DNA of 29,739 bases from an uncultured Fidelibacterota bacterium (lineage in GTDB: Bacteria > Marinisomatota > Marinisomatia > Marinisomatales > UBA1611). Below, piece after piece: positions 2 through 26,948 of the stretch (within the stretch, counting starts at the first letter, position 1; each line of letters starts with the position of its first letter). A program made the position numbers and the translations under genes. Location: contig CAJWHU010000005.1 of the NCBI GenBank assembly GCA_913041325.1, forward strand, positions 1-29,739, read 5' to 3'. A model generated the notes under the pieces. That model was not told the origin of the DNA, searched no databases, and was given only the letters and a program-made list of their open reading frames with translations.

Positions 2-1000
2 ATTGTAGGCCATGGAAGTATTGGAAAGCGTCATCTGACAATACTTCGTCAACTTCTTCCAAAAGCAGAAATTGCTATATTAAGGCACAAGAAAGATCTT
101 GAAATACCTGAGGGGGCAGATCGTGTTTATTCAAAGATGGATGAAGTAATAGAATTTTCACCTCAGATGGCTGTTATTGCAAACCCAGCAACTTTTCACG
201 TATCTACAGCAATGCCTTTAGCTGAAGCAGGAATTCATCTTTTAATAGAAAAGCCACTCTCTACCTCGTCCTATGGAGTAGATAAACTTATTGAAATATG
301 TAATCGGAGGAAGACGGTTTTAGCAATTGGCTATAACCTTCGTCATCTAGAATCTTTACAAAAATTTAAATCCTTTATTGATAAAAAATTAATTGGGGAT
401 ATTTGGTCTGTCCGAAGTGAAATTGGTCAATATCTTCCATCTTGGCGCCCAGATAATGACTATACTTTAAGTGTTTCAGCTAGAAAGAAGCATGGTGGCG
501 GTTCTTTATTAGAGCTTAGTCATGAAATTGATTATTTGAGGTGGATATTTGGTGAAATAGATTGGATTCAGGCAACCCTTTCCAAGCAAAGCGATTTATT
601 AATTGATGTAGAAGATACAGCACATCTAATTTTAGGTTTTGCAGCCAATAACGATGGAAAACAGCTTATTGCTTCAGTTAATCTAGATTTTATAAGACAA
701 GATACTACCAGGGTCTGTATAGCTGTAGGTAAATCTGGAAGTCTTCGATGGAATGCCTTAACTGGAACAGTTGAGATATGGAAATTAGGCATGCAAGGTT
801 GGGAGGAAATTTATAAACAAAAAACTTCAATGCACAGCAGTTATATAGATGAATGCAAAGACTTTATTGAAAGCATTGAAAAAGGGTCCGAGCCTAAAAC
901 TAGAGGTGAAGATGGTTTAAGGGTGTTGCAGGTTATAGATGCTGCAAGAAAAGCAAATGAAACTAGGTCTCAAGTAAAAATAAATAAACACTATGGATGA
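2..1000 (+). CDS. Gfo/Idh/MocA-family oxidoreductase, 5' end cut by window edge
   Basis: The reading frame is open from base 2, so the gene starts before the window; the first in-frame ATG at 137 is internal. The visible protein is about 332 residues and opens directly with the NAD(P)-binding motif GHGSIGKRH, so only a few N-terminal residues are missing. The Gfo/Idh EKP motif (IEKPLS) and a later LSHEIDYLRWI segment, typical of the substrate-binding half, are present. Family members oxidise or reduce sugars or nucleotide sugars in the cytoplasm. The stop overlaps the next start by 8 bases, indicating one operon with the CMP-nonulosonate synthetase and SDR that follow. Oxidoreductases of this type sit beside ptmB/ptmA-like genes in legionaminic-acid clusters. 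The exact substrate cannot be read from sequence. Confidence 0.85.
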   Translation: MVGHGSIGKRHLTILRQLLPKAEIAILRHKKDLEIPEGADRVYSKMDEVIEFSPQMAVIANPATFHVSTAMPLAEAGIHLLIEKPLSTSSYGVDKLIEICNRRKTVLAIGYNLRHLESLQKFKSFIDKKLIGDIWSVRSEIGQYLPSWRPDNDYTLSVSARKKHGGGSLLELSHEIDYLRWIFGEIDWIQATLSKQSDLLIDVEDTAHLILGFAANNDGKQLIASVNLDFIRQDTTRVCIAVGKSGSLRWNALTGTVEIWKLGMQGWEEIYKQKTSMHSSYIDECKDFIESIEKGSEPKTRGEDGLRVLQVIDAARKANETRSQVKINKHYG

Positions 1001-1706
1001 TAAAAATTTAGCCTTTATTTTTGCAAGAGGTGGCTCCAAAGGCTTGCCAAAAAAAAATATAAAACTCCTCGGAAATAAGCCGCTCATAGCATGGTCAATT
1101 GAAAGTGCTTTGGCTGTAGAGTCAATTCTTTCTGTATATGTATCAACTGACTGTGGAGAAATTGCAGAAATTGCAACCAAATATGGCGCAAAAGTCCCTT
1201 TCATTAGACCAGAACATCTTGCAAGTGATGAGAGCTCTGAATTGCTATCTTGGAAACATGCATTAGAATTTTATCAAGAAAACAATGATGGTAGTCTCCC
1301 AAATAAAATAATCTCGATACCGGCTACCGCTCCATTAAGGAGTCCCTTAGATATCCAAAATTGTATTGAAAAATTTGAAAAAGAAGAAGTAGATGCGGTA
1401 ATCACTGTAACTGAATCTTCAAGAAATCCATATTTTAATATGGTCAAAGAAAATTCTAATGGAAATATTGACTTATTAATGCAGCCTTCTAATAATTTAA
1501 CTAGACGACAAGATGCACCCGTTGTGTTCGATGTCGCAACAGTCGCATATGTAGCAAGACCAGAATTTATAATGAAATGCAAATCCATTTTTGAGGGCAG
1601 AGTTCGTGCTGTACATGTGCCGCTGGAGCGTGCGATTGATATAGATACGTTAATGGACTTTAAAAGAGCTGAATTTTATTTATCACAGCGTGAAAGTGAA
1701 AGATGA
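993..1706 (+). CDS. neuA: CMP-nonulosonate synthetase (acylneuraminate cytidylyltransferase family)
   Basis: At 237 residues this is normal for single-domain NeuA/LegF/PtmB enzymes, which activate a nine-carbon sialic-type acid with CTP to give the CMP sugar and pyrophosphate. The N-terminal CTP-binding signature is intact (FARGGSKGLPKKNIK, about residues 10-24), followed by the conserved LIAWSIESA and STDCGEIAEIA stretches. It overlaps the preceding oxidoreductase by 8 bases and the following SDR by 4 (ATGA), so all three are probably co-transcribed. Whether the acid is neuraminate, legionaminate or pseudaminate is undecided, because the synthase and upstream sugar enzymes are outside the window. 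An unrelated CMP-activating domain occurs in the phosphonate gene at 3704; this one clearly belongs to the NeuA fold. Confidence 0.88.
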   Translation: MDDKNLAFIFARGGSKGLPKKNIKLLGNKPLIAWSIESALAVESILSVYVSTDCGEIAEIATKYGAKVPFIRPEHLASDESSELLSWKHALEFYQENNDGSLPNKIISIPATAPLRSPLDIQNCIEKFEKEEVDAVITVTESSRNPYFNMVKENSNGNIDLLMQPSNNLTRRQDAPVVFDVATVAYVARPEFIMKCKSIFEGRVRAVHVPLERAIDIDTLMDFKRAEFYLSQRESER

Positions 1707-2506
1707 TGACAGTTCAAAAATTAATGAATTTAAAAGGGCGAAGGGCATTGCTAACTGGAGCAACTGGAGGCCTTGGTTGTGTAATGGCGGAGACACTTGC
1801 AGAGCTTGGAGCAGATCTTATTTTAGTAGATCTTCCAGGAACTGATTTTTCTTCTTTAAAAAAATCGTTAGAGAATAATTGGTCAATAAAAGTTTGGAGC
1901 TATCATTGTGATCTTGAGCAAAATAATCAACGTCAAGAACTAATAGATTTAGTGAAAGACGAACACGATATTTTAAATATTTTAATTAATAACGCTGCTT
2001 TTGTCGGCACATCAGAGCTTTTAGGCTGGAGCACAGATTTTGAAAATCAAACTGTAGAGACATGGCGTAGAGCATTAGATGTTAATCTCACAGCACCATT
2101 TCACCTTTGCCAGGCCTTTACGCCTTTATTAAATAAGTCAGACAAGTCGAGTATCATAAATATAGGTTCAATATACGGTCAATATGGACCAGATTGGCGT
2201 TTATATGATGAAACCATTATGGCCAATCCTGCAGCATATGGCGCTGCTAAGGGCGGACTTCTTCAATTCACTCGTTGGCTCTCAACAACATTGGCACCAA
2301 GCATCAGAGTTAATGCCATTTCTCCTGGTGGTATTTTTAGAAATCAACCAGATTTATTTGTAAAAAGATACGAAACAAGGACTCCACTCCAAAGAATGGC
2401 TAAAGAAGATGACTTTAAAGGTATCACTGCTTATCTGGCTAGTGATATGTCATCATATGTAACTGGACAAGTATTCTCTGTTGATGGTGGCTGGGGCGTA
2501 TGGTAG
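1703..2506 (+). CDS. Short-chain dehydrogenase/reductase (PtmA-like)
   Basis: A 267-residue classical SDR. It shows the cofactor motif TGATGGLG near the N terminus, the NNAA motif (LINNAAF), a catalytic Ser after IINIG, the YxxxK pair (YGAAK) and the SPGGIF loop. The start overlaps the NeuA-like stop as ATGA, with a second ATG three bases later. Its position directly after a CMP-nonulosonate synthetase matches ptmA after ptmB in flagellin-glycosylation and legionaminate loci, so a role in modifying the nonulosonate or its precursor is inferred from context. The family assignment is secure; the substrate is not known. Confidence 0.85.
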   Translation: MMTVQKLMNLKGRRALLTGATGGLGCVMAETLAELGADLILVDLPGTDFSSLKKSLENNWSIKVWSYHCDLEQNNQRQELIDLVKDEHDILNILINNAAFVGTSELLGWSTDFENQTVETWRRALDVNLTAPFHLCQAFTPLLNKSDKSSIINIGSIYGQYGPDWRLYDETIMANPAAYGAAKGGLLQFTRWLSTTLAPSIRVNAISPGGIFRNQPDLFVKRYETRTPLQRMAKEDDFKGITAYLASDMSSYVTGQVFSVDGGWGVW

Positions 2507-2550
2507 ATCTATTAATTTAACTTCATCATACGAAGGCTTAAATTTATTTA

Positions 2551-2555
2551 AAGGA
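2551..2555 (+). promoter_or_regulatory. Ribosome binding site fixing the start at 2562
   Basis: AAGGA lies six bases before the ATG at 2562. No comparable site precedes the upstream in-frame ATG at 2481, which lies inside the SDR gene. The downstream start is therefore preferred. Confidence 0.6.
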
Positions 2556-2561
2556 AATAAT

Positions 2562-3584
2562 ATGAAGATTGGAGGTACTTATGGTCACGATGTTGAACTG
2601 CAGCGTGGAGCTAATTTTGGTAATGAAGTGGTCATTGTTGATGGGCAAGGGCGTTCAGGAAAAAACTTGATTGCTGTTTTACTTTCTACCATGAATCGCG
2701 TTGAAAAGATGCGATTGGATAGCCAAATTGACTATCTTGCAAGATATTATTTTCTTGGAAAGATGAGCCTCGATGCTGCTGTGACTGCCCTTCAGTTAGA
2801 ATTTGATGAGAAATATTACTATCAGGCAATATCTCGTGACACAAATTTCCGTATCGCTGATTACACTGGTGTTTTAAAACAAGGCAAAAGGTTAGAGTAC
2901 TTTCGTAGATTATTTTTACCTGCTGATGAGGCTGCCGTTATAAGAATGCAGAAGGAAAAAGGAATTTTTCAAGAAATGACCCATGATGGTTTACATGCTG
3001 CTTCTCTATATTTTGCAGCTCTGGGGGAGCGGTTAAAGATGGTACACATTTTCCGAGATCCGGTAGGTAATATATACGAGCAAAATCAAAGAGATATTGG
3101 CAATAGAGTTGGGAGTGATCCCCGCGAATTACAGTTAACACATCTCTGGAATGGGCAACATGTTCCAATCAAGGTAATTGGCAAGGAAGAGGCCTGGTTA
3201 GAAGGCAATGCTACCGAGAAACTAGTTCTTATGGTCGACGCGATGTTCCGGCTTAACTTCCAAGGATATCTTGATATCAGCTCAGATGATAGAAAGAAGA
3301 TTCTATTTTTGGAGTTTGAAGATTTCGTTGTAAATCCGTATCCACATATGGAACGTTTAGAAGCTTTTATTGGTGAAAAGTTTGGTAAAGAGAAAACGCG
3401 TATTCTGAAGCGAGAACGGAGTCCTAGAGTCCTCGATCCTTTAGAACGGGAGCGTAGAATCGATATGATCCGTCAAAATCTTGGTAATTTCTATGACAAA
3501 ATATTTTTAAAATTGATAGAGGATTATGATATTAAGCCATGGCTTGCATGGGATGAGGCAACTGAACTAAATCATAAATTGTAG
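2562..3584 (+). CDS. Sulfotransferase-like protein
   Basis: A 340-residue protein when started at the ATG with a good Shine-Dalgarno; an upstream ATG at 2481 would add 27 residues read from within the SDR gene and is less likely. Residues about 24-38 form a P-loop-like PAPS-binding segment (IVDGQGRSGKNLI). A later HIFRDPVGNIYEQNQR segment resembles the Arg-containing 3'-phosphate-binding motif of sulfotransferases. The family moves sulfate from PAPS to hydroxyl or amino groups of glycans and small molecules. It sits between the nonulosonate genes and the phosphonate module and is separated from the latter by 119 bp. A role in sulfating the polysaccharide is inferred. No PAPS synthesis genes are present in the window. 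The match is at superfamily level, so another use of the fold is possible. Confidence 0.65.
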   Translation: MKIGGTYGHDVELQRGANFGNEVVIVDGQGRSGKNLIAVLLSTMNRVEKMRLDSQIDYLARYYFLGKMSLDAAVTALQLEFDEKYYYQAISRDTNFRIADYTGVLKQGKRLEYFRRLFLPADEAAVIRMQKEKGIFQEMTHDGLHAASLYFAALGERLKMVHIFRDPVGNIYEQNQRDIGNRVGSDPRELQLTHLWNGQHVPIKVIGKEEAWLEGNATEKLVLMVDAMFRLNFQGYLDISSDDRKKILFLEFEDFVVNPYPHMERLEAFIGEKFGKEKTRILKRERSPRVLDPLERERRIDMIRQNLGNFYDKIFLKLIEDYDIKPWLAWDEATELNHKL

Positions 3585-3703
3585 TACAAACTATAGTTCC
3601 TCAAAAATTACTGCGCTACGAGAGTTTCTAATTGTACAACTATAAGGCAGGAACAATAAGTCAGTCTGCCACAGAATAATTTTAATAAAATAGAGAGACA
3701 AAT

Positions 3704-5002
3704 ATGAAAAAAGTTTATGTGGGCATGAGTGCGGATTTGATTCATCCAGGGCACTTGAATGTACTGAAAGCAGCTGCTGAGTTGGGGCAAGTAATAGTTG
3801 GTGTTTTAACTGATTCTGCGATTGCAAGCTATAAAAGACTGCCCTACATGAATTACGAGCAGCGCGCTGAAATAGTCAGTAATTTGAAATCAGTTTACGA
3901 AGTTATTCCTCAAAATACCTTGGACTATACAGAGAATTTAAAAGCCTTAAAACCTGATTATGTGGTTCATGGAGATGACTGGAAAGATGGTGTGCAGCAA
4001 AAAACTCGCCAAACAGTTATAGACACTATATCTGAGTGGGGTGGTGAGTTGGTCGAGGTACCTTATACACAGGGTGTTTCTTCAACGGCCTTGAATATGG
4101 CTGTAAAAGAGTTAGGCACTACACCGCAAATTCGCCTTGCCAGTTTGCGCCGGTTATTAAAAGCAAAGCCTTTGATTCGATTTTTAGATATCCATAATGC
4201 CTTGAGTGGACTGATCATTGAGCACACTCAAGTAGAGATTGATGGCGAATCTCGTCAATTTGATGGTATGTGGGGAAGTAGTCTCACTGATTCAACAGCT
4301 AAAGGAAAACCTGATATTGAGGCTGTAGACGTAAGTTCTCGAATGTCAACTTTGAGCGAGGTTCTTGAGGTCACTACAAAGCCAATTATTTATGATGCCG
4401 ATACCGGAGGGCAAATTGAGCATTTTAAATTCACAGTAAGAACTTTGGAGCGTCTGGGTGTCTCAGCGGTTATTATTGAAGACAAAACAGGATTAAAGAA
4501 AAATTCTCTTTTTGGAAATGAAGTTCCTCAAACCCAGGATAGTATTGATAATTTCTCTAACAAAATTTCGGCAGCTAAAAGTGCTCAAGTAACAGATGAC
4601 TTCATGGTGATAGCTCGTATAGAAAGTCTCATTTTGGAGGCAGGGATGGAAGATGCAATTCTACGAGCTAAGGCATTCCTAGAGGCTGGAGCGGATGGAA
4701 TTATGATTCACAGCAGGCAAAAAGATCCTGCCGAAATATTGGAGTTTTGTCGACAATATGCTCAAATTCCCAGTCGAAAGACATTAGTGGTTGTGCCCTC
4801 AAGCTTTAATTCCATTACTGAAGATGAGTTAGAGAAAGCAGGTGTCAATATAGTTATCTACGCAAATCAACTTCTGCGTAGCGCTTTTCCTGCGATGCAG
4901 GCCACAGCAGAGTCTATTTTAAGACATAGCCGATCATTGGAATGTGAGGAGAAAATGCTATCCATCAAACAAATTTTGGAACTTATACCTGGGACAAAAT
5001 AA
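3704..5002 (+). CDS. pepM: Fused cytidylyltransferase / phosphoenolpyruvate mutase
   Basis: This 432-residue fusion starts the phosphonate pathway. Residues 1-135 are a glycerol-3-phosphate-cytidylyltransferase-type domain with HPGH at 14-17, the VVHGDDW segment at 87-93 and a GVSST variant of the RTxGIST motif at 124-128. Residues about 150-430 are PEP mutase, converting PEP to phosphonopyruvate: DADTGG at 231-236, the diagnostic [10 protein letters not shown] at 259-268 and IARIES at 303-308. That signature separates true mutases from isocitrate-lyase relatives. Fusion of the two activities suggests the final phosphonate is activated as a CMP ester for transfer to a macromolecule. The stop overlaps the decarboxylase start by one base (TAATG). 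Mutase identity is very firm; the cytidylyltransferase substrate is inferred. Confidence 0.95.
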
Positions 5003-6123
5003 TGATCAATGTAAAACAATTTTTTGATGCATTAAGAGATCAGGGTGTTAGTAATTTTTCTGGTGTTCCGGATTCATTGCTAAAAAATATATGTGCATAT
5101 ATTTCGGATAATACTACCCCAATCCAACATTTGATTACAGCAAATGAGGGCTCTGCAGTAGCCCTAGCGGTTGGTCAGTATATTACGACAGGACAGCCAT
5201 CTTTGGTTTATATGCAAAATTCGGGATTTGGTAACGCTATAAACCCCTTACTTTCACTCGCAGATGCTGAAGTTTATAGTGTACCTATGATTGTTATGAT
5301 TGGTTGGCGTGGTGAGCCTGGGATTAAGGATGAACCTCAGCATGTTAAACAAGGTGCAATCATGGAGCAGTTATTAGAGGCTTGTGATCTTCCTACGATA
5401 ATCATTGATGCTGATACTGACTGCATTGACGAGGTTTTGAGATCAGCTGTAGGGCAAGCAATTAATAGAAGTCGGCCAGTTATTTTGCTGGTCAGGAAAG
5501 GAACCTTTGAGCCTTATAAGCTAAAAAATACTTCGCCGGATATTTCTAAAGAATCTCGAGAAGATGCTATTAAAATGGTTGTGGAAGCTTCTGGATCAGA
5601 GGATATTTTCGTATCTACCACAGGCATGGCATCAAGAGAATTATTTGAAAATCGAGTTCAAAATAAACAATCTCATGGTAAAGACTTTTTGACTGTAGGC
5701 TCAATGGGGCATGCTAATATGATTGCTTTAGGCGTCGCACAAAATACTGATAGACACGTATTTTGCATCGATGGAGATGGCGCTAGCCTTATGCACCTTG
5801 GGAATCTTACTTCGACAGGTCAATCCGGAGCTAAAAATCTAATTCATATATTATTGAATAATGCGGCACATGATTCCGTAGGTGGTCAGCCAACATGTGC
5901 CAATAAGGTTGACATACCCTTAATCGCTAAAGCTTGTGGATATGTCTCCGCTTCAAGTATTTCTAATATTCAAGAAATACAAAAATATATTGAGCAATTT
6001 AAGCTAGAGCCCGGACCCCATTTACTTGAAGTGAAGATAAAAAAAGGATCACGAAGTGATTTAGGTCGACCTACCTCTACCCCTCTTGAGAATAAAGAAG
6101 CGCTAATGAAAGTTTTCAGGTAA
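5002..6123 (+). CDS. ppd: Phosphonopyruvate decarboxylase
   Basis: A 373-residue thiamine-diphosphate enzyme that decarboxylates phosphonopyruvate to phosphonoacetaldehyde, the irreversible step that pulls the unfavourable PEP mutase reaction forward. Visible features are GVPDSLLKNI near the N terminus, the cofactor-activating Glu at about residue 49 (TANEGSA), the ThDP/Mg motif opening with GDG at 258-260 and closing with NN at 286-287, and the following AHDSVGGQPT, which is characteristic of this decarboxylase family. The length is normal. The gene is translationally coupled to pepM by a one-base overlap and is followed 4 bp later by the iron alcohol dehydrogenase. This is one of the most secure calls in the window. 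Confidence 0.95.
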   Translation: MINVKQFFDALRDQGVSNFSGVPDSLLKNICAYISDNTTPIQHLITANEGSAVALAVGQYITTGQPSLVYMQNSGFGNAINPLLSLADAEVYSVPMIVMIGWRGEPGIKDEPQHVKQGAIMEQLLEACDLPTIIIDADTDCIDEVLRSAVGQAINRSRPVILLVRKGTFEPYKLKNTSPDISKESREDAIKMVVEASGSEDIFVSTTGMASRELFENRVQNKQSHGKDFLTVGSMGHANMIALGVAQNTDRHVFCIDGDGASLMHLGNLTSTGQSGAKNLIHILLNNAAHDSVGGQPTCANKVDIPLIAKACGYVSASSISNIQEIQKYIEQFKLEPGPHLLEVKIKKGSRSDLGRPTSTPLENKEALMKVFR

Positions 6124-6127
6124 CCCT

Positions 6128-7267
6128 ATGGAATACTATAATCCGGTTAGGCTCATACTAGGCAGTGGAGCAAGGGTAAAAATTTCAGAGGAGTGCACCG
6201 ACAGAAGAGTACTTATTTTTTGTACGGAAACAGCTTTAGCTCGGCACAAACAAGATCAAGCTTTAAATTCACTTATATCCCTACCTAATGTAATTTTTGA
6301 ACATGCTTTTGGTAGCAATCCATCAATTACAGATGTTTCTGCAATTAGTCGAAAATATCAAAAAACCAATATAGATCTTGTTATTGGCCTTGGGGGAGGA
6401 AGTGCTATGGATGTAGCAAAAATAGCATGTGTTTCAATTCCTGCTTATCAAGAAGGTCTAGAGATTAATGATCTTTTGACTAACTCAAAGCTATTTTGCC
6501 GTTTTAAAGCAATAGATTGTGTGCAGGTTCCTACAACCGCTGGAACTGGCAGCGAAGTAACGCCTTTTGCTACCGTTTGGGATTATGAAAACCAGCAAAA
6601 AAAATCATTAAGCGATCCATCAATGTTTGCTAAAAAGGCTATTATAGATCCGGATTTTTTATGTGGTACTCCACTAAATATATCTATCTCAACTGGGCTT
6701 GATGCTTTAAACCAAGCTTTCGAATCAATTTGGAATGTCAATGCAAATGAGTATACTCGCTCTTTTTCGAGAATGGCAGCAGTGATTGCTCTACAGACTT
6801 TGCCATTAGTCGATGACATCTCTAAGAGTTCTCAACTGAGAGAGAAACTTACCAAGGCAAGTTTGTTTGCTGGCATAGCTATAAGCCAAACTAGAACCTC
6901 AATTTGTCATTCAATATCATACCCTCTTACTTTGAAATATGGGATGTCTCACGGAATTGCATGTGCATTTTCAATGCTTGAAGTATATAAATTTAATGAA
7001 GCTTTTATAAAGAATGATATAGAGACAATAGCGTTTAATTTAAAGCAAGACCCTTATGGAGTTTTGGAAAACATCTTTAGTCAATACGGTTTAAATGCCC
7101 TATTTGCTAAAGCTCTGCCAAATAAGTCAATTTTTACTGATTCTATTGATGATTTTATTACTGCAGGGAGATTTGAAAACAATATAAAAAACTGTAATCA
7201 CTCAGATCTCATTAATATAATCACAGCTAGCTATAATAGGGCAGTGAACTCGACCTATACCCAATAG
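6128..7267 (+). CDS. Iron-type alcohol dehydrogenase, probable phosphonoacetaldehyde reductase
   Basis: At 379 residues this is a normal group-III alcohol dehydrogenase. It has the NAD(P) motif GGGSAMDVAK (89-98), PTTAGTGSE (135-143) and the C-terminal CHSISYP and SHGIACA segments. By analogy with PhpC and FomC, and placed 4 bp after ppd, it should reduce phosphonoacetaldehyde to 2-hydroxyethylphosphonate. No aminotransferase for aminoethylphosphonate adjoins the module. Expected metal ligands are Asp192, His261 and His275. The position that is usually the second ligand (His in DALxHAxE) is Gln196 here (LDALNQAFES); I cannot tell whether that is a subfamily trait or a change in metal binding. 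Fold and pathway context are secure; the precise reaction is inferred. Confidence 0.85.
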   Translation: MEYYNPVRLILGSGARVKISEECTDRRVLIFCTETALARHKQDQALNSLISLPNVIFEHAFGSNPSITDVSAISRKYQKTNIDLVIGLGGGSAMDVAKIACVSIPAYQEGLEINDLLTNSKLFCRFKAIDCVQVPTTAGTGSEVTPFATVWDYENQQKKSLSDPSMFAKKAIIDPDFLCGTPLNISISTGLDALNQAFESIWNVNANEYTRSFSRMAAVIALQTLPLVDDISKSSQLREKLTKASLFAGIAISQTRTSICHSISYPLTLKYGMSHGIACAFSMLEVYKFNEAFIKNDIETIAFNLKQDPYGVLENIFSQYGLNALFAKALPNKSIFTDSIDDFITAGRFENNIKNCNHSDLINIITASYNRAVNSTYTQ

Positions 7268-7271
7268 AACC

Positions 7272-7358
7272 ATGACCACGATGCAATTTCCAGGTAAAGT
7301 TTCTCAATATAGATTTCAGGATGAACAAGAAGCGTCACATCGAATAATAGTTGATTAA
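7272..7358 (+). other. 28-codon intergenic open frame, possible gene remnant
   Basis: A complete small frame (ATG at 7272, TAA at 7356) fills most of the gap between the phosphonate module and the AT-rich block. Its translation, starting MTTMQFPGKVSQYRF, has a balanced residue composition, but no convincing ribosome binding site precedes it. It could be the N-terminal stub of a lost gene or chance. I do not recognise it. Confidence 0.2.
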
Positions 7359-7365
7359 AGCGATC

Positions 7366-7371
7366 AAGGAG
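7366..7371 (+). promoter_or_regulatory. AAGGAG ribosome binding site; suggests TTG start at 7379
   Basis: A full AAGGAG ends only one base before the ATG at 7373 but seven bases before an in-frame TTG at 7379 (third codon of the long frame). The spacing favours initiation at the TTG. The two choices differ by only two residues. Confidence 0.5.
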
Positions 7372-7372
7372 T

Positions 7373-8647
7373 ATGCTTTTGAGAGATATTAATTCAATAA
7401 AAAAATATCTTTTTTATGATGTTTTTAGCTATTTCATTGATGCAGGAATTAAGAATGAAAAAGATAGATATTTACAAAAAAAAGGGATAGCTAGAAGCAG
7501 GTTTGTTTATTCATTCTCAAAAATTTTTCTTTATTTACTTAATCTCATTTATAAAATTAAGTTAAAGAAAAACAAACCACATGAGCAAAGTATTTATTTT
7601 TATGCCGACCCATTGACCTATTCAGATATCGTTTTTGAACTGTCAAAAAATTACAATTTGTTTTTTAACAATCCTCTCAGGGTGGATAAAAGAATAAGAT
7701 TTAAAAGTAATATATTTTATTTTCCTTTTGTTAAACAAGCTACAGACTTAACAAACGGGTTCTTGAATAAAAAAGATAATCAAATTCTTGAAAGCATAAA
7801 TCAAATAAAAAGTATTTTAGAAACAACTAAACCAAAAATAATTGTTTTATATGACTCTACTTTTCCTATCAACAGAGCGATTATCCAAGTTTCAAAAGAA
7901 CTTGGTATTCGTACAATTGAAATTCAGCATGCTACCTATCCTATCAAATCCAAACTTTTACCGGGATTAGGTGCAGATTTTTTATACGTATGGGGAGAAT
8001 ATTTCAAAGAAATGTACGAGAAGCAAAAAATTAGAAATGATGATTCAATTAAAATATTAGGCTATCCCTTTGAATCTAATTTAAAAAATAACTTACTCCA
8101 AAATAGAAAATTAACTCTTTATTATCTGGCACAAGGGTTTCAATATGAAGATATCAAGAATTTAGATAGACTTTTAGAAAATGCACTTTACTTAAAAAAT
8201 TTATCAAATACTTTAAATATCACTTTTAAGTGCAAGTTGCATCCAAATAGCCCGAAAGTTTTATTAGACAAAGTTTTACCTCACTTAGAGTGTAATCCAT
8301 TAGATCAAACTATGGAAAATGCAATAAATGACGGGGATATATTTGTTTCATTTAATTCAACTGCTTTAATTAAAGCTGCATTTCAAGGTAAGAAATGCTT
8401 TCAACTTATGAATTTGCCCGTTGAGTGTGATAATTTCGAAGAACTAGGTATTTGCAAGACATTTTTGGATTTGAATGAATTAAATGCTTATCTCACAAAT
8501 CTACTTAAATCAGATAAAGACAACATTTTAAATGAAGGAAATTCAATCAATGATAAATACATTAAGACTTTTAATTGTGGGCCAGGCATGAGGTTTGCAA
8601 ATTTAATAGAAGAGATTGAGAGCAATAATCATTATGAAAAAAATTAA
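7373..8647 (+). CDS. Putative GT-B-like transferase, unknown donor (candidate phosphonate or nonulosonate transferase)
   Basis: I do not recognise a named family in this 424-residue protein. The C-terminal half contains KCKLHPNS (about residues 285-292) and, after an acidic stretch, VSFNSTALIKAAF. An HP motif followed by a Ser/Thr motif is seen in GT-B enzymes that use CMP- or CDP-linked donors, such as poly/sialyltransferases, KpsC/KpsS and CDP-glycerol glycerophosphotransferases. An upstream EIQHATYPI segment also resembles capsule-type GT-B proteins. No signal peptide or clear membrane segment is evident. It lies just after the phosphonate genes and overlaps the next gene by 14 bases. Two CMP-activated donors are predicted in this locus (nonulosonate and hydroxyethylphosphonate), so either could be its substrate; this is inference. 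The start may be TTG 7379 rather than ATG 7373. Confidence 0.6.
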   Translation: MLLRDINSIKKYLFYDVFSYFIDAGIKNEKDRYLQKKGIARSRFVYSFSKIFLYLLNLIYKIKLKKNKPHEQSIYFYADPLTYSDIVFELSKNYNLFFNNPLRVDKRIRFKSNIFYFPFVKQATDLTNGFLNKKDNQILESINQIKSILETTKPKIIVLYDSTFPINRAIIQVSKELGIRTIEIQHATYPIKSKLLPGLGADFLYVWGEYFKEMYEKQKIRNDDSIKILGYPFESNLKNNLLQNRKLTLYYLAQGFQYEDIKNLDRLLENALYLKNLSNTLNITFKCKLHPNSPKVLLDKVLPHLECNPLDQTMENAINDGDIFVSFNSTALIKAAFQGKKCFQLMNLPVECDNFEELGICKTFLDLNELNAYLTNLLKSDKDNILNEGNSINDKYIKTFNCGPGMRFANLIEEIESNNHYEKN

Positions 8648-15355: not shown

Positions 15356-16132
15356 ATGAAGGTTGTTATTTTGGCAGGTGGTTTTGGAACTAGGTTAAGC
15401 GAGGTCACAGATTTAACTCCAAAACCTATGGTAGAAATCGATGGCAAGCCTATCTTGTGGCATATCATGAAGATATATTCAGCATATGGATATAATGATT
15501 TCGTTATTTTGCTAGGTTACAAGGGTTACACAATAAAGGAATACTTCGCAAACTATTTTTTACATCAAAGCGACGTAAGAATTAACCTGGAAGAAAATAG
15601 TATTGAGGTACTAAATACCTCAAGTGAACCTTGGAAGGTTTCACTAATTGATACAGGTTTAAATACTATGACCGGTGGAAGGATCAAGCGTGTTGAAAAA
15701 ATAATCGGTAATGAGCCTTTCTTCTTAACTTACGGTGATGGAGTTTCTGATATAAATATCGAAGAACTTGCAAAGGCTCACAAAAATAATGGCGGTAAAA
15801 TTACAATGACAGCAGTTCAGCCTGATGGTAGGTTTGGTACATTTGAAAGCGGCTCAGAAGGGAGGGTAAATAAGTTCCTAGAGAAACCTCGTGGGGATGG
15901 TTCGTGGATAAATGGTGGGTTTTTTGTCTGCGAGCCCGAGGTCTTTGATTATATAAACAATGGTGATTCAACTGTCTTTGAGCAAGAACCTCTTCAGGAT
16001 ATGGCTTCAGCTGGAGTATTATATCGATATGAACATACAGGCTTCTGGAAATGTATGGACACCCTGAAAGACAAAAATGATTTAAATAAAATGTGTCGAG
16101 AAAATTTAGCACCCTGGGTTAGTTGGTCCTAA
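15356..16132 (+). CDS. rfbF: Glucose-1-phosphate cytidylyltransferase
   Basis: A 258-residue enzyme that makes CDP-glucose from CTP and glucose-1-phosphate. It carries the nucleotidyltransferase signature LAGGFGTRLSEVT near the N terminus, the TPKPMVEIDGKPILWHIMK stretch specific to RfbF/DdhA, YGDGVSD at the metal site and FLEKPRGDGSWINGGFF at the sugar site. AGAGG at 15341-15345 lies 10 bases before the ATG. It heads a CDP-sugar branch with RfbG 13 bp downstream, and base composition rises sharply in GC relative to the preceding block. Highly confident. Confidence 0.94.
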   Translation: MKVVILAGGFGTRLSEVTDLTPKPMVEIDGKPILWHIMKIYSAYGYNDFVILLGYKGYTIKEYFANYFLHQSDVRINLEENSIEVLNTSSEPWKVSLIDTGLNTMTGGRIKRVEKIIGNEPFFLTYGDGVSDINIEELAKAHKNNGGKITMTAVQPDGRFGTFESGSEGRVNKFLEKPRGDGSWINGGFFVCEPEVFDYINNGDSTVFEQEPLQDMASAGVLYRYEHTGFWKCMDTLKDKNDLNKMCRENLAPWVSWS

Positions 16133-16145
16133 TCCAACCAATATT

Positions 16146-17273
16146 ATGCATATCGATAGTAAGGTTATAACTTTGTTTGGTGATATTTATCGCGGCAAAA
16201 AGGTTCTGATAACAGGCCATACTGGTTTTAAAGGTAGTTGGCTTACTTGCTGGTTAATAAAGTTAGGCGCAGAGGTTGTAGGCCTTTCCAAAGATGTCCC
16301 AACCCAGCCATCGATGTTTGAAGATCTCGAACTAGAATCGATGATTAAACATCACGTATGTGACATTCGAGATTTTGAAAGTCTATCTGAAATAATCAAT
16401 GCCGAACGGCCTGATGTTATATTTCATCTAGCTGCTCAGGCAATTGTCTCTACTTCTTATGACGAGCCTACTGAAACTATCAGCACCAATGCAATTGGGA
16501 CCACGAACATATTGGAGGTGTTGCGTAAAGTGTCATGGCCCTGCAGCGCTGTCCTTATTACTAGCGATAAAAGTTATGATAACGTCGAGTGGGTATGGGG
16601 ATATAAAGAAACTGATTCGTTAGGTGGCAAAGATGTTTATAGTGGGTCAAAAGGAGCGGCGGAGCTTATCATAAAATCTTATTATCATTCATTTTTTCAA
16701 AACAAAAAGCATCCAGTAAAATTGGCTGTTGGGCGTGCAGGTAATGTTATAGGCGGCGGTGACTGGGCAAGAGATCGTATTATTGTTGATACGGTTAAAG
16801 CGTGGTCCAAGAAACAAAGTGTTGAAATTCGCTGTCCTGATGCTACACGACCCTGGCAGCACGTTTTAGAGCCTATCTCAGGTTATCTTGCGCTTGGCAA
16901 AGAGCTTCTTAAAACAGGGCAAACAGATGGAGAGGCTTTTAATTTTGGTCCAAGAGCTGAGCAAAATAGAACAGTTATTGAGCTTTTAACTACTATGGCT
17001 GATAAATGGACGGCTGATATTCCTGCTAAGCCATACACTGTGACCGACAATATTCCTTTTAAAGAAGCTGGATTATTAAAACTGAATTGTGACAAAGCAT
17101 TGTTCTTCTTAAAGTGGGATGCAACCCTAAATTATTCTCAGACCGTCAAGATGACTGCTGAATGGTATTCTGCATACTTGGCTGATGAGGCATCTTTATT
17201 TGACGTGACGGCAAATCAAATAGAAGAGTATCAGTCTATAGCTCAGGAGCGAAAGTCTTCATGGGTGGATTAA
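16146..17273 (+). CDS. rfbG: CDP-glucose 4,6-dehydratase
   Basis: A 375-residue extended SDR that converts CDP-glucose to CDP-4-keto-6-deoxyglucose. It has GHTGFKG at residues 24-30, FHLAAQAIVS, the catalytic ITSDKSYDN segment (about 138-146) and Tyr165/Lys169 in YSGSK. RPWQHVLEPISGYL near residue 245 is a hallmark of RfbG/DdhB. The length is normal. It follows rfbF directly. The next gene starts before its stop, so the CDP branch continues into the RmlC-like protein and the DegT aminotransferase. Confidence 0.94.
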   Translation: MHIDSKVITLFGDIYRGKKVLITGHTGFKGSWLTCWLIKLGAEVVGLSKDVPTQPSMFEDLELESMIKHHVCDIRDFESLSEIINAERPDVIFHLAAQAIVSTSYDEPTETISTNAIGTTNILEVLRKVSWPCSAVLITSDKSYDNVEWVWGYKETDSLGGKDVYSGSKGAAELIIKSYYHSFFQNKKHPVKLAVGRAGNVIGGGDWARDRIIVDTVKAWSKKQSVEIRCPDATRPWQHVLEPISGYLALGKELLKTGQTDGEAFNFGPRAEQNRTVIELLTTMADKWTADIPAKPYTVTDNIPFKEAGLLKLNCDKALFFLKWDATLNYSQTVKMTAEWYSAYLADEASLFDVTANQIEEYQSIAQERKSSWVD

Positions 17274-17722
17274 TGGATTCAAAACCATATCTGACTGAGT
17301 TAAAGATAATAGAACAATCTCAAGGTTGTGTTATGCATGGGATTAAGGTTTCTGACTCTAGCTATGTTGGATTTGGTGAAGCCTACTTTTCAACTGTACA
17401 CAAAGGACACATTAAGGGCTGGAAATTGCATAGAGAAATGACTTTGAATTTAGTTGTTCCCTTTGGCGATATTAGGTTTATTGTTCATGACGGTAACCGT
17501 GATAAAAAGGAAATACCCATAGAGCCGTTAATTGACGTTGTGTTGGGTGATACTAATTACTGCAGATTAACTGTTCCACCTAATTTTTGGTTTGCATTTC
17601 AAGGCATTGGTGCGAATACTAATATTTTAATGAATGTCGCCAATATAGAGCATGACCCCAATGAATCACTCAACAAAAGTTTAGATTTTTTTGATGTTAA
17701 AGGATGTAAAGATTTTGAGTGA
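17261..17722 (+). CDS. RmlC-like cupin, probable CDP-4-keto-6-deoxyhexose epimerase
   Basis: A 153-residue cupin of the dTDP-4-dehydrorhamnose 3,5-epimerase family. The conserved KGHIKGWKLHREMTLNLVV carries the family His-containing strand, followed by GDIRFIVHDGN and the PPNFWFAFQ closing strand. The ATG at 17261 has AGGAG 11 bases upstream; an alternative ATG at 17273 forms TAATG with the rfbG stop. Between RfbG and an aminotransferase it should epimerise C3 and/or C5 of CDP-4-keto-6-deoxyglucose before amination. A 3,4-ketoisomerase role (FdtA-like) is a less likely alternative, and would yield a 3-amino instead of a 4-amino sugar. Confidence 0.78.
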   Translation: MGGLMDSKPYLTELKIIEQSQGCVMHGIKVSDSSYVGFGEAYFSTVHKGHIKGWKLHREMTLNLVVPFGDIRFIVHDGNRDKKEIPIEPLIDVVLGDTNYCRLTVPPNFWFAFQGIGANTNILMNVANIEHDPNESLNKSLDFFDVKGCKDFE

Positions 17723-18854
17723 TTTACGATTATCTAAGTCTTGTATTGGGGACGCTGAAAAACTTGCTGTAAAGCGCGTTCTCGACCGTGGATTTTTTGG
17801 TATGGGGCAAGAGGTGAATGCTTTTGAGCAGGCCTTATCGCAGTTCTTTGGTCGCCCAACAGTATGTGTGGTGAATGGGACTGCCGCTCTCCATTTAGCA
17901 CTCCAAGCCGCTGGAGTGGGTAAAGGCGATGAAGTGCTTGTTCAGTCACTAACATATGTTGCTAGCTTTCAGGCTATAACTGCTACTGGAGCTAAGCCTG
18001 TAGCTTGTGATATTTTGCCCTCAACTGCCTGTATAGACTTAAGTGATGCGGCAGTGAAAATCACTCCTAATACTAAAGCCATCATGCCCGTTCATTATGC
18101 TGGCGGTGTTGGTCATCTTGATGATCTTTATAATTTTGCTAGTGACCATGGCTTAAGAGTAATAGAAGATGCTGCACACGCATTTGGAACTATATATCAA
18201 GGTCAGAAAGTTGGAGCTTTCGGTGATATTGCTTGTTTTAGTTTTGATGGTATCAAGAATATTACATCTGGCGAAGGTGGATGCATTGTCACAGATGATA
18301 AAATGGTTCTTGAACGCATTAAAGATGCTCGACTACTTGGTGTTGAAGGTGATACTGATAAGCGATTCTCAGGTGGTCGAAGCTGGGATCCTGATGTGCA
18401 CCATCAGGGTTGGCGATATCATATGAGCGATATTATGGCTGCTATTGGAATAACACAACTCAAAAATTTTGAGTATCATAAAAATCGCAGACAAGAACTT
18501 GCGAAGTGTTATGCAGAGCATTTGAGCTCAGTTCCAATGATCTCCATTTTTGATCATGATTATGACAACGTAGTACCGCATATATTCGTTATAGTTCTTG
18601 ATGAGGATATAGATAGAGAGGCCTTGATCAGTTTGTTAAAAGACCATGGCATACCAGTAGGTATTCACTACAAGCCTAATCATTTACTTAGTTATTTTTC
18701 CGGTAACATAAAAGAAAATCTTCCTACTACTGACATTTTATATCCAAGGCTATTAACCTTACCTCTGCATCCTGAGCTATCTTTTGAAGATATAGCAAGT
18801 ATAGTGAAATTGTTAAAACAAGGTATAGAGCATGTCAAAACAGCCTCTCGTTAG
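17694..18854 (+). CDS. DegT/DnrJ/EryC1 aminotransferase of the CDP-sugar branch
   Basis: A 386-residue PLP enzyme from the ATG at 17694. A TTG at 17715 with AAAGGA ten bases upstream is a good alternative start, giving the shorter N terminus usual for the family. It shows VVNGTAALHLAL, VIEDAAHAFG (about 156-165) and the Schiff-base Lys188 in SFDGIKNITSGEGG. The lysine is important: RfbH/DdhC, the usual third enzyme after RfbF-RfbG, has His there and an iron-sulfur cluster. This is therefore an ordinary aminotransferase, suggesting a CDP-amino-dideoxyhexose instead of a 3,6-dideoxyhexose. It overlaps the next gene by 23 bases. Confidence 0.87.
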   Translation: MLKDVKILSDLRLSKSCIGDAEKLAVKRVLDRGFFGMGQEVNAFEQALSQFFGRPTVCVVNGTAALHLALQAAGVGKGDEVLVQSLTYVASFQAITATGAKPVACDILPSTACIDLSDAAVKITPNTKAIMPVHYAGGVGHLDDLYNFASDHGLRVIEDAAHAFGTIYQGQKVGAFGDIACFSFDGIKNITSGEGGCIVTDDKMVLERIKDARLLGVEGDTDKRFSGGRSWDPDVHHQGWRYHMSDIMAAIGITQLKNFEYHKNRRQELAKCYAEHLSSVPMISIFDHDYDNVVPHIFVIVLDEDIDREALISLLKDHGIPVGIHYKPNHLLSYFSGNIKENLPTTDILYPRLLTLPLHPELSFEDIASIVKLLKQGIEHVKTASR

Positions 18855-19764
18855 CATTATTATGAATTGCTTCAATGGGGAGCAATATATAAAGGAAGCG
18901 ATCAACTCTGTTTATGCTCAAACATACTCAAATTGGGAAATTATTTTTTGGGATAACGCTTCATCCGATAATAGTTACGAAATTGCGGAGTCATATGATG
19001 CCAGAATAAAGTTATTTAAGTCTGAAGAGACTACGTCTCTTGGCGAGGCCCGAAGTAGGGCTATTAAAAATGCTAAAGGAGATTGGCTTGCTTTTTTAGA
19101 TGTTGATGATATTTGGCTTCCAGAAAAACTAGAACGCCAAATGTTAGGCCTTATCGGCAGCAATCATATTTTGAGCTATGGTGGTATCACTGAAGTTGAT
19201 AAAAACCTTAATATTATTAGGAATTTACATCCTCGGTGGGTAAGTGGTGAACAACTATCATCACAGTTACGATATTTTGAAATAAATTTAGTTACTGCTG
19301 TTGTTAATCGCCAGAAGCTTCATGAACTTGGCATTAATTTTGATGAAAAAATGGAGGCGTCCGAGGAATATAACCTTTTTCTTAAATTATTGCCTCATGG
19401 TACGGTCTTTGTATGCGAAGAGATTTTAGCTTTATACCGCGTATATCAAGAATCATTAACCTTCAAAAAAATGGAACGTTGGTCTATTGAAAGACGAATT
19501 ACGTTAGAAGAATTAGCAGCTAACGTACCTGACCTTAAGGAAAGCGAGTCATTCAATGCAGCCTTGCAACAAGCGGACTACTATGAAGCTTGTTTTCTAA
19601 TGAGTCAAAGAAGTCATGCTAGGGCGCGAAATTTACTTACTCAGTATAAGAGGCAGAAAGTATTTAGAATTTTGGCTTATGTCACTTACGTACCATGGCT
19701 GTGGAAAATTTTACATAATCCCTTTTTGAAAAAAAGGTTAACTTCTATTTTCAAAATTTTCTAA
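18832..19764 (+). CDS. GT2-family glycosyltransferase
   Basis: A 310-residue GT-A enzyme. It opens with VSIIMNCFNGEQYIKEAINS, continues with EIIFWDNASSDNS (nucleotide-binding DN) and has the DxD-type metal site LDVDDIW about 90 residues in. A later SEEYNLFLKL corresponds to the ED-type catalytic-base region. The C-terminal 60 residues are basic and hydrophobic and probably associate with the membrane. It starts within the aminotransferase gene and shares one base with the polymerase gene that follows. By proximity it may transfer the CDP-linked amino sugar, though GT2 specificity cannot be read from sequence. Confidence 0.87.
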   Translation: MSKQPLVSIIMNCFNGEQYIKEAINSVYAQTYSNWEIIFWDNASSDNSYEIAESYDARIKLFKSEETTSLGEARSRAIKNAKGDWLAFLDVDDIWLPEKLERQMLGLIGSNHILSYGGITEVDKNLNIIRNLHPRWVSGEQLSSQLRYFEINLVTAVVNRQKLHELGINFDEKMEASEEYNLFLKLLPHGTVFVCEEILALYRVYQESLTFKKMERWSIERRITLEELAANVPDLKESESFNAALQQADYYEACFLMSQRSHARARNLLTQYKRQKVFRILAYVTYVPWLWKILHNPFLKKRLTSIFKIF

Positions 19765-20900
19765 TGCGACCATTCTACCTATATTTGTTGGTGTGGATAC
19801 TCCCGCTAACTACCTCTTTTTGGTTCATATCTGACTTTAATATTGGGATATCAACTTTCTCATTAAACTACTTAGCAGCCCTTTTACTTACCTTTTTTTG
19901 TGTGAGTTTGTTGTTTTCTTTTATGTTTCCAAATAAAAGGGCAAGAGTAGATGTGGTAAAAAAATTTAATTCAAAAAAATCAATAAAACTTCAATCTCAG
20001 CTAGTCATTTCATGGTATTTATTGTTCTTTCTAGAAGTTCTATATTCTGGTGGACTGCCTGTTCTTTGGGGTGGGCAGCAAGGCTATGCTGAGTTCGGGA
20101 TTCCTACAATACACGGATTTTCAAATATGTTGCGAGCTCTCATCTTTTCCAATATCGTCCTCCTACATTTATTAGGTATGCGGGTTCCAGCGTGGGTGAC
20201 AGGTATGAGTGTTTTCACGTTATTTAGTGCATTAGTCTTGGAACAATCCAGAGGAGCTTTCGTAATGACACTGCTATTTGCTCTCGGCCCGATGGCTATC
20301 TTTATGAAAATATCAATATTTAGAGTATTGAAGTACAGTGTTTTTTTAATAATATTTTTAGCGCTTTTATCTACCTTTCAGTTCATAAGATATTCCGATT
20401 CACCGATGGAAGAAATTCTCCTTGTTATTAACTTAGCTATTGATGGTGATGTTTACAAATATTTAATTGAGCCTGTAGCTAATTATATTGCAACTCCTAT
20501 ACTTAATGCTGGCTTGAATATAGATATTGCCGATAATTTTGGTTTTGTCCCAATAGATACAATGTCAACTCTAGTTCCCTCTATCTTTGGAGAAATTTTA
20601 TTTTCAGGCATTGAAACAGATTATGGAGCTTTATTTAACGAAGCTTTTAATACGACTACTTACGTTGTTCCTTTCGTTCGGGATTTTGGATTGGTTGGTG
20701 GTTTTATAGTTATTAGCTCATTCTTTACTTATTCTACTTATGTTTTTTTCAAGGCAAGAAATGGAAGTGTTGAACATATTATAAAGTTGTCACCTCTCAT
20801 GATGTGTTTGGGTTTATCGTTTTTCACTTCATACCTAACTAGCTTAATAACTATTGTGTATATTTTGATATCGCGTGCGGTAGCTAGGCGGATGGTGTAA
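19764..20900 (+). CDS. wzy: Wzy-like O-antigen / oligosaccharide repeat-unit polymerase
   Basis: A 378-residue integral membrane protein with about nine or ten hydrophobic segments, starting at residues 4-22 and 34-55. A long polar stretch of about 90 residues (roughly 215-305) before the last membrane pair is typical of Wzy periplasmic loops. The YSGGLPVLWGG segment after the third helix recalls the oligosaccharide repeat-unit polymerase family. Wzy joins lipid-linked repeat units at the outer face of the inner membrane. It is the only polytopic protein of this kind here, so no Wzx flippase is in the window. Wzy proteins diverge strongly, so topology and context carry the call. Confidence 0.75.
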   Translation: MRPFYLYLLVWILPLTTSFWFISDFNIGISTFSLNYLAALLLTFFCVSLLFSFMFPNKRARVDVVKKFNSKKSIKLQSQLVISWYLLFFLEVLYSGGLPVLWGGQQGYAEFGIPTIHGFSNMLRALIFSNIVLLHLLGMRVPAWVTGMSVFTLFSALVLEQSRGAFVMTLLFALGPMAIFMKISIFRVLKYSVFLIIFLALLSTFQFIRYSDSPMEEILLVINLAIDGDVYKYLIEPVANYIATPILNAGLNIDIADNFGFVPIDTMSTLVPSIFGEILFSGIETDYGALFNEAFNTTTYVVPFVRDFGLVGGFIVISSFFTYSTYVFFKARNGSVEHIIKLSPLMMCLGLSFFTSYLTSLITIVYILISRAVARRMV

Positions 20901-26387: not shown

Positions 26388-26948
26388 ATGATTAGATTTA
26401 TAAGTTTAATATTTAGTTTATTAATTGCCTTTTTTCTTGTGCTGCCAATTATTCTGATATCAATTATTATTTTCTTAAAAGATAGAGAGTACCCACTTTA
26501 TTTTTCTTCTAGAATCGGAAAGAATAATAAAATCTTTCTGATGCCAAAGTTTAGAACCATGCGTTCAAATACTCCTCAAGAAGCTACTCATTTACTAACA
26601 AATCCAGATGATTATCTTCTTTCTACAGGAAGTTTTTTAAGGAAATATAGTTTAGATGAATTGCCTCAGATAATATCGATTATCAAAGGTGACATGGCAT
26701 TTGTTGGCCCCAGACCTGCTTTATTCAATCAAGATGATTTAATTAATCAAAGGGACCTGAAAGAGATAAGTCAACTAAAACCGGGAATTACGGGCTGGGC
26801 TCAAGTTAATGGAAGAGATAATCTGTCTATAGAAGAAAAAGTTCAATATGATGAAGAGTATTTGAGAAGGGCTTCCATGAGTTTTGACATTTATATAATT
26901 TGGCTAACTATTATTAAGGTGATAAAAAAAGATGGAATTTCTCATTAA
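26388..26948 (+). CDS. PglC-like initiating phosphoglycosyltransferase
   Basis: A 186-residue monotopic sugar-phosphate transferase of the short PglC type (no N-terminal WbaP/WcaJ membrane domain). Residues 3-30 form the re-entrant membrane helix. KFRTMR (54-59) is followed by the catalytic Asp90-Glu91 dyad in SLDELPQ, GDMAFVGPRPAL (101-112) and PGITGWAQVNGRD. It would transfer a sugar-1-phosphate from a UDP sugar, here probably UDP-D-QuiNAc, to undecaprenyl phosphate at the inner membrane, starting the repeat unit. The 110 bp before it holds no recognised gene and no strong ribosome binding site; an in-frame TAG at 26373 rules out a longer N terminus. Confidence 0.9.
   Translation: MIRFISLIFSLLIAFFLVLPIILISIIIFLKDREYPLYFSSRIGKNNKIFLMPKFRTMRSNTPQEATHLLTNPDDYLLSTGSFLRKYSLDELPQIISIIKGDMAFVGPRPALFNQDDLINQRDLKEISQLKPGITGWAQVNGRDNLSIEEKVQYDEEYLRRASMSFDIYIIWLTIIKVIKKDGISH

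Follow-up and report, generated by a model that had tools for sequence, protein, structure and literature searches.

The window, as we call the whole 29,739-nucleotide stretch analyzed here, carries three phosphonate genes on the + strand, each an intact open reading frame (ORF). The first (3704..5002, 432 amino acids) encodes a Fom1-type cytidylyltransferase-phosphoenolpyruvate (PEP) mutase fusion, with the cytidylyltransferase at residues ~1-135 and the PEP mutase (PepM) at 148-431; the second (5002..6123, 373 amino acids) encodes a phosphonopyruvate decarboxylase (Ppd/AepY); and the third (6128..7267, 379 amino acids) encodes a metal-dependent reductase of the iron alcohol dehydrogenase (Fe-ADH) family, a putative phosphonoacetaldehyde reductase by position. 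The fusion and Ppd overlap by 1 base, Ppd and the reductase are separated by 4 bases, and all are in frame, which bears out the description in the earlier note of three consecutive and coupled genes. We consider it highly probable that they form a Fom1-type module within a surface-polysaccharide locus, making 2-hydroxyethylphosphonate activated with cytidine monophosphate (CMP-HEP) and leading to an HEP ester on the O-antigen.

The phosphonate cassette

Pfam places PF01467 at residues 9-129 of the fusion and PF13714 at residues 148-406. The cytidylyltransferase motifs are intact, namely HPGH (of the HxGH type), YKRLP (containing K44-R45), and SST. The best match of this domain among solved structures, identical at 89 of 134 residues (66%), is 5X3D, which carries the database label PEP phosphomutase and which we take to be the cytidylyltransferase domain of Fom1. 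According to Rice 2019 (PMC6697681), Fom1 moves CMP from cytidine triphosphate (CTP) onto HEP, yielding CMP-HEP, and a PF01467 fusion is present on 23.6% of PepM proteins. The mutase half scores 407.2 bits with TIGR02320, above the cut-off of 319.55, and contains the 10-residue stretch EDKxGxKxNS that had been claimed for it; the stretch also fits the EDKXXXXXNS motif of Rice 2019, the five named residues of which are conserved in 88 of 88 sequences. Several of the 120 relatives listed, at 86-89% identity, are named "phosphoenolpyruvate phosphomutase / 2-hydroxyethylphosphonate cytidylyltransferase". Given the 5X3D match, Rice 2019, and these database names, the central reading of the earlier note is right and already known, and the fusion is predicted from its sequence to convert CTP and HEP to CMP-HEP as Fom1 does.

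The decarboxylase scores 470.8 bits with TIGR03297 (cut-off 312.5), and the reductase scores 118.4 bits with the Fe-ADH family PF00465 (gathering cut-off 31.3) and has the metal site D192, Q196, H261, and H275. Across 66 reductase sequences, including that of the window, D192, T257, H261, Y265, and H275 are invariant; Gln and His occupy position 196 in 40 and 26 sequences, respectively, and position 252 varies among Ile (53), Phe (12), and Met (one). The top solved-structure match is 6jko, labelled methanol dehydrogenase, which we take to be BkTauF because the BkTauF site residues recur in the alignment at a constant offset of 5. BkTauF is a sulfoacetaldehyde reductase with the zinc ligands Asp192, Gln196, His261, and His275, in which the T257A and F265A mutations almost abolish activity (PMC6616044). 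The site of the window reductase would fit a small aldehyde bearing a sulfonate or phosphonate group, and the position of the gene in the cassette predicts that its product reduces phosphonoacetaldehyde, the PhpC/FomC role.

A genome scan confirmed 158 relatives, and the best 80 by similarity to the window, drawn from many phyla, were analyzed as loci. Thirteen were too short and were set aside. In the 67 with 2.5 kb or more of sequence downstream of the fusion, Ppd lies near the fusion in 66 and the reductase in 61, the latter not being a general rate because the loci were picked by similarity to the window; a Bacteroidota sample, described below, corrected our earlier reading. The phpC reductase gene occurs in just over 20% of phosphonate-capable genomes (PMC9381506), and the association in our loci is tighter than that rate, but the loci were chosen by likeness to the window. 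With this bias and the Bacteroidota sample in hand, we dropped the proposal that the PF01467 fusion goes with the reductase as a rule. Of 293 genomes searched within the order that includes HTCC2148, five carry the fusion.

The transfer step and the proposed pathway

An ORF immediately downstream of the cassette was found in 61 loci, and it was scanned in 58 of them (L005, L012, and L029 were left out). This slot holds PF04464 in 14 of the 58, LicD in seven, and CDP-OH_P_transf in six, up to 27 combined. Enzymes of the PF04464, LicD, and CDP-alcohol phosphatidyltransferase classes use cytidine diphosphate (CDP)-alcohols and release CMP. The same slot in the window is occupied by ORF 7373..8647 (+ strand), a candidate CMP-HEP (or CMP-sugar) transferase with a glycosyltransferase-B (GT-B) fold. 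It matches no Pfam family, PF04464 included, at E 0.001 or 0.1. The AlphaFold2 model built from 48 sequences has a mean pLDDT of 87.1 and resembles GT-B proteins. When the family was aligned with hhalign to an 11-member PF04464-type set (five members Pfam-checked, the remainder added by similarity and position), the alignment spanned 212 columns with a probability of 87.8, against 30.7 over 52 columns for the WecB control and 0.1 for the GT4 control. The post-cassette slot of the Bacteroidota locus L063 holds a remote relative (probability 55.7), and a search of 369 genomes in the HTCC2148 class gave one distant match of 112 bits. ORF 7373 is the best candidate for the HEP transferase, a GT-B protein remotely like PF04464. 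We know of no enzyme that places HEP on a sugar, and among the open-licence papers listed, judged by titles and abstract beginnings, none evidently named a CMP-HEP transferase.

We read ORF 7373 as a putative transferase with CMP as leaving group; the donor has a slightly better than even chance of being CMP-HEP and a somewhat less than even chance of being the CMP-sugar of ORF 993..1706. A serious competitor for the transfer step only, to which we give a little under an even chance, is that ORF 7373 is a CMP-nonulosonate (sialic-acid-like) or other glycosyltransferase and that another protein, perhaps encoded outside the window, moves HEP. It draws on weak matches to the polysialyltransferase family PF07388 in 11 of the 48 aligned relatives (E limit 0.1, best 0.00087; none for the window protein itself), on the CMP-sugar synthetase gene at 993-1706, and on the many GT-B folds that align about equally. 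It has to contend with the slot, occupied by CDP-alcohol-type transferases in as many as 27 of the 58 loci scanned, and with the lack of any PF04464, LicD, or PF01066 match among the 29 window ORFs scanned with Pfam.

The earlier note placed the module in an O-antigen-type locus, and the genes around it agree. We found a Wzy-type oligosaccharide repeat-unit polymerase (19764..20900, + strand; TIGR04370, 60.9 bits, cut-off 40), an initiating sugar-phosphate transferase (26388..26948, + strand; PF02397), WecB (213.2 bits, cut-off 210.15), and CDP-glucose enzymes exceeding their cut-offs. A PF02719 protein and glycosyltransferases are also in the locus, as is an FnlA-like protein that scores under its cut-off. 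No Wzx flippase family was matched among the 29 window ORFs in the Pfam scan, and the locus may extend past the window.

These observations of domains, active-site residues, a conserved cassette, and neighbors underlie a pathway whose reactions, acceptor, and transferase are all predicted. PEP mutase would convert PEP to phosphonopyruvate, which Ppd would decarboxylate to phosphonoacetaldehyde; the metal-dependent dehydrogenase would reduce this to HEP, and the N-terminal domain of the fusion would combine HEP with CTP to give CMP-HEP. HEP would then be moved to a repeat-unit sugar by an enzyme that releases CMP, for which the GT-B protein of ORF 7373-8647 is the most likely candidate, and the product would be a phosphonate ester on the O-antigen. 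Attachment of the phosphonate to a polysaccharide is probable, and this part gains weight because transferases adjoin related cassettes.

Several points weigh against this pathway. The reductase is missing from six of the 67 loci, and its best NCBIfam model, TIGR03405 (PsrA), gives 255.1 bits against a cut-off of 423.7; the iron alcohol dehydrogenase named in the earlier note thus stands as a family assignment, through PF00465, and falls short as the phosphonate equivalog. T257 and Y265 are shared with 9jx4, an entry labelled aldehyde-alcohol dehydrogenase, and so do not prove the substrate, and F252 of BkTauF is Ile in the window reductase. The fold matches of ORF 7373 are led by UDP-GlcNAc 2-epimerases and not by CMP enzymes, its alignments to two narrower PF04464-type sets are weak (probabilities 9.7 and 40.2), and the CMP-sugar of ORF 993-1706 could serve it instead of CMP-HEP. 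The fusion alone cannot tell HEP from 2-aminoethylphosphonate (AEP) because five of 99 related fusions adjoin an aminotransferase. Finally, the window is cut upstream, and MpnS, HepD, or PhnW may lie elsewhere in the genome.

Alternative products and cytidylyltransferase residue 44

We think it improbable that HEP is an intermediate to methylphosphonate or hydroxymethylphosphonate via an MpnS or HepD encoded outside the window. MpnS pathways likewise use PepM, Ppd, and a reductase (PMC8931226, PMC9381506), but Pfam, in a search that did not include MpnS or HepD models, recognized no such gene in the 29.7 kb, and the fused cytidylyltransferase would have no evident role unless the end product is what gets activated.

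Slightly less probable again is that the activated phosphonate is AEP, made via an aminotransferase elsewhere in the genome, with the dehydrogenase acting on another aldehyde. AEP is the example given for bacterial surface phosphonates in Rice 2019 (PMC6697681). Since the 80 loci are biased toward the window, we turned to Bacteroidota: PepM was sought in 395 genomes from the same phylum as L063, of which 10 matched at the limit set and nine were over the cut-off. Nine regions together with L063 itself contain seven fusions, and in four of the seven an aminotransferase replaces the reductase after Ppd, as AEP production would have it; the other three have the reductase. The three nonfusion PepM regions have an aminotransferase in two cases and neither partner in one. 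Aminotransferases were recognized by 30-36% identity to that of L079, a further locus described below. In the window, by comparison, the slot after Ppd holds the reductase. The three DegT-type aminotransferases present, which start ~2.9 kb or more after the module, fit the sugar-aminotransferase family DegT at 342-392 bits and class V weakly, and no PhnW model is among the listed NCBIfam matches of these pyridoxal phosphate enzymes. The PhnW model was over its cut-off in two of the 48 fusion-bearing genomes searched, which correspond to 50 of the 80 loci; one of the two is the genome of L079.

The residue at cytidylyltransferase position 44 (window 3833-3835) also bears on AEP. We compared 99 full fusions, 76 with a reductase, five with an aminotransferase, and 18 with neither seen, most of the last close to a contig end; eight loci (L083-L089 and L100) were excluded as short or duplicated, and L107-L109 have no fusion. 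Position 44 is Lys in all 94 fusions near which no aminotransferase was found, including that of the window and 12 viral rows, and in none of the five near an aminotransferase, where it is Ser in four and Gln in L079. The aminotransferase label needs two changes on a quick tree of the fusions, a single origin also being possible, so the association represents at most two independent events. Residue 44 is thus a possible sequence-level sign of specificity, distinguishing HEP-type from AEP-type fusions. The argument of the earlier note from a missing aminotransferase thus withstands a test that could have overturned it, in that the window keeps Lys44 as do the other fusions near which no aminotransferase was found, with the correction that the fusion by itself is no proof of HEP. 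CMP-HEP as the module product, also proposed there, is supported by the Fom1 cytidylyltransferase match, the reductase in 61 of 67 loci, the intact active-site residues, and the link between Lys44 and the type of partner gene.

At L079 (6201-7592), from the Gammaproteobacterium UBA1119, the fusion and Ppd adjoin a PhnW-type aminotransferase located beside Ppd on the opposite strand. Its cytidylyltransferase has TPGH in place of HPGH, Gln44, and Arg90; with the first His of HxGH lost, the domain may be decaying and not respecialized.

The least likely account is that the module makes a diffusible natural product resembling fosfomycin instead of decorating the surface, as the place of Fom1, the closest characterized relative, in fosfomycin biosynthesis would suggest (PMC6697681). 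Fom3 is of the radical-SAM type and Fom4 of the cupin type, and neither domain is among the Pfam matches of the window; the recognized neighbors are mostly nucleotide-sugar, glycosyltransferase, and polymerase genes.

Neighboring genes, viral cassettes, and known systems

Directly upstream of the fusion, ORF 2481..3584 (+ strand) encodes a P-loop protein with a predicted sulfotransferase fold and an unusual P-loop, DGQGRSGKN; it does not exceed the Pfam cut-off for PF00685, the 3'-phosphoadenosine 5'-phosphosulfate (PAPS) sulfotransferases. The family comprises 134 proteins at E 0.001, largely metagenomic and mostly unnamed or "hypothetical", and a relative precedes the fusion of L063. It appears to be linked to the ORF 7373 family on shared contigs elsewhere, as judged from equal record sizes and source labels in search tables, not from gene order. 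Searches of genome groups for relatives of either ORF bear little on this linkage; for ORF 2481 they gave one of 274 genomes of the HTCC2148 class (27% identity), one of 395 of the class of L063 (the L063 genome itself), and none of 14 around genome G429. A five-gene unit spanning 2481-8647, in which ORF 7373 would be a new kind of phosphonotransferase that takes HEP from CMP-HEP and places it on a sugar of the O-antigen, and ORF 2481 would sulfate the product, for example at the free hydroxyl of HEP, is a speculative and rather unlikely extension. Such a unit would yield a sulfated phosphonate ester, and to our knowledge none of this sort has been described.

Further upstream on the + strand lie a Gfo/Idh/MocA oxidoreductase (2..1000, Pfam), the 5' end of which is cut by the window, a CMP-sugar synthetase type cytidylyltransferase (CTP_transf_3, PF02348; 993..1706) that is a possible source of another CMP donor, and a short-chain dehydrogenase/reductase family oxidoreductase (1703..2506; Pfam, NCBIfam). 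At 15356-18854, a glucose-1-phosphate cytidylyltransferase and a CDP-glucose 4,6-dehydratase, both over their cut-offs, are followed by an FdtA-like protein (below its cut-off) and a DegT aminotransferase; together they probably form a branch of the same locus for a CDP-linked amino sugar.

A Fom1-type fusion is also encoded on twelve IMG/VR viral contigs of up to 189 kb (L081, L082, and L090-L099). A short Fe-ADH lies beside the fusion in 11 of the 12 (258 amino acids in L081, compared with 379 for the window protein); a small split Ppd is present in ten of these 11 (131 + 152 amino acids in L081, compared with 373). No Ppd was matched in L097, and both Ppd and Fe-ADH are missing from L091, but the contig of L091 stops 980 bases past the fusion; the fusions of L093 and L094 are identical. 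The flanks (40 ORFs from four loci, 10 from L081/L082) include some phage exonuclease, dUTPase, Holliday resolvase, and sugar-gene families, with no capsid or terminase among the families listed for these ORFs (25 of 26 families in one scan). Virus-encoded phosphonate degradation genes have been reported (PMC13188868); we found no report of phage-encoded phosphonate synthesis in the titles and abstract beginnings of the papers listed or in passages of that paper. Plasmid records gave one full-length fusion match at 54% identity, and two unannotated "Bacteriophage sp." records from human stool (MT836947.1 and MT837901.1), which are short and may be bacterial DNA, contain full-length fusions at 55-57% identity.

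The HEP module is well formed, probably working, and of a known kind: the cytidylyltransferase-PepM type of enzyme is in print (PMC6697681), database relatives are named accordingly, and a surface-polysaccharide setting is expected from the literature. What is new is the candidate transferase, the sulfotransferase-fold neighbor, the Lys44 sign, and the viral cassettes. CMP-HEP synthesis beside one candidate transferase makes the HEP-to-sugar step testable, and Lys44 could serve as a simple sequence marker separating HEP-type from AEP-type fusions, one that can be checked by assay. Of the phosphorus in high-molecular-weight marine dissolved organic matter, up to 20% is in methylphosphonate and its HEP precursor, which occur as esters on polysaccharide, and in aerobic water the breakdown of methylphosphonate yields methane (PMC9381506).

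Among known systems, BkTauF (PMC6616044) resembles the window reductase in having D192, Q196, H261, H275, and T257 at equivalent positions, and differs in that its F265 and F252 are Tyr and Ile in the window protein and that its substrate is a sulfonate. The PntC phosphonyl tailoring (Pnt) pathways of oral bacteria (PMC6697681) share with the system proposed here a nucleotidyl-activated phosphonate, surface tailoring, and LicD-like transferases nearby; PntC, however, belongs to PF12804 and prefers AEP, whereas the window cytidylyltransferase belongs to PF01467. Fom1, from the fosfomycin pathway of Streptomyces wedmorensis, has the same order of domains, cytidylyltransferase then PEP mutase, and its 66% identical cytidylyltransferase acts on HEP (PMC6697681), but the window fusion sits in an O-antigen-type locus in which no fosfomycin tailoring gene was recognized. 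The phosphonoglycan producer Glycomyces sp. NRRL B-16210 (L042) is an Actinobacterium, in which it differs from the source of the window, and has a 64% identical fusion followed, as here, by Ppd and the reductase, with a PF04464-type protein (local profile) directly upstream of the cassette. Its glycan reportedly carries HEP. The phosphonoglycans of this strain are the subject of Yu et al. 2014, found in the reference list of PMC8931226.

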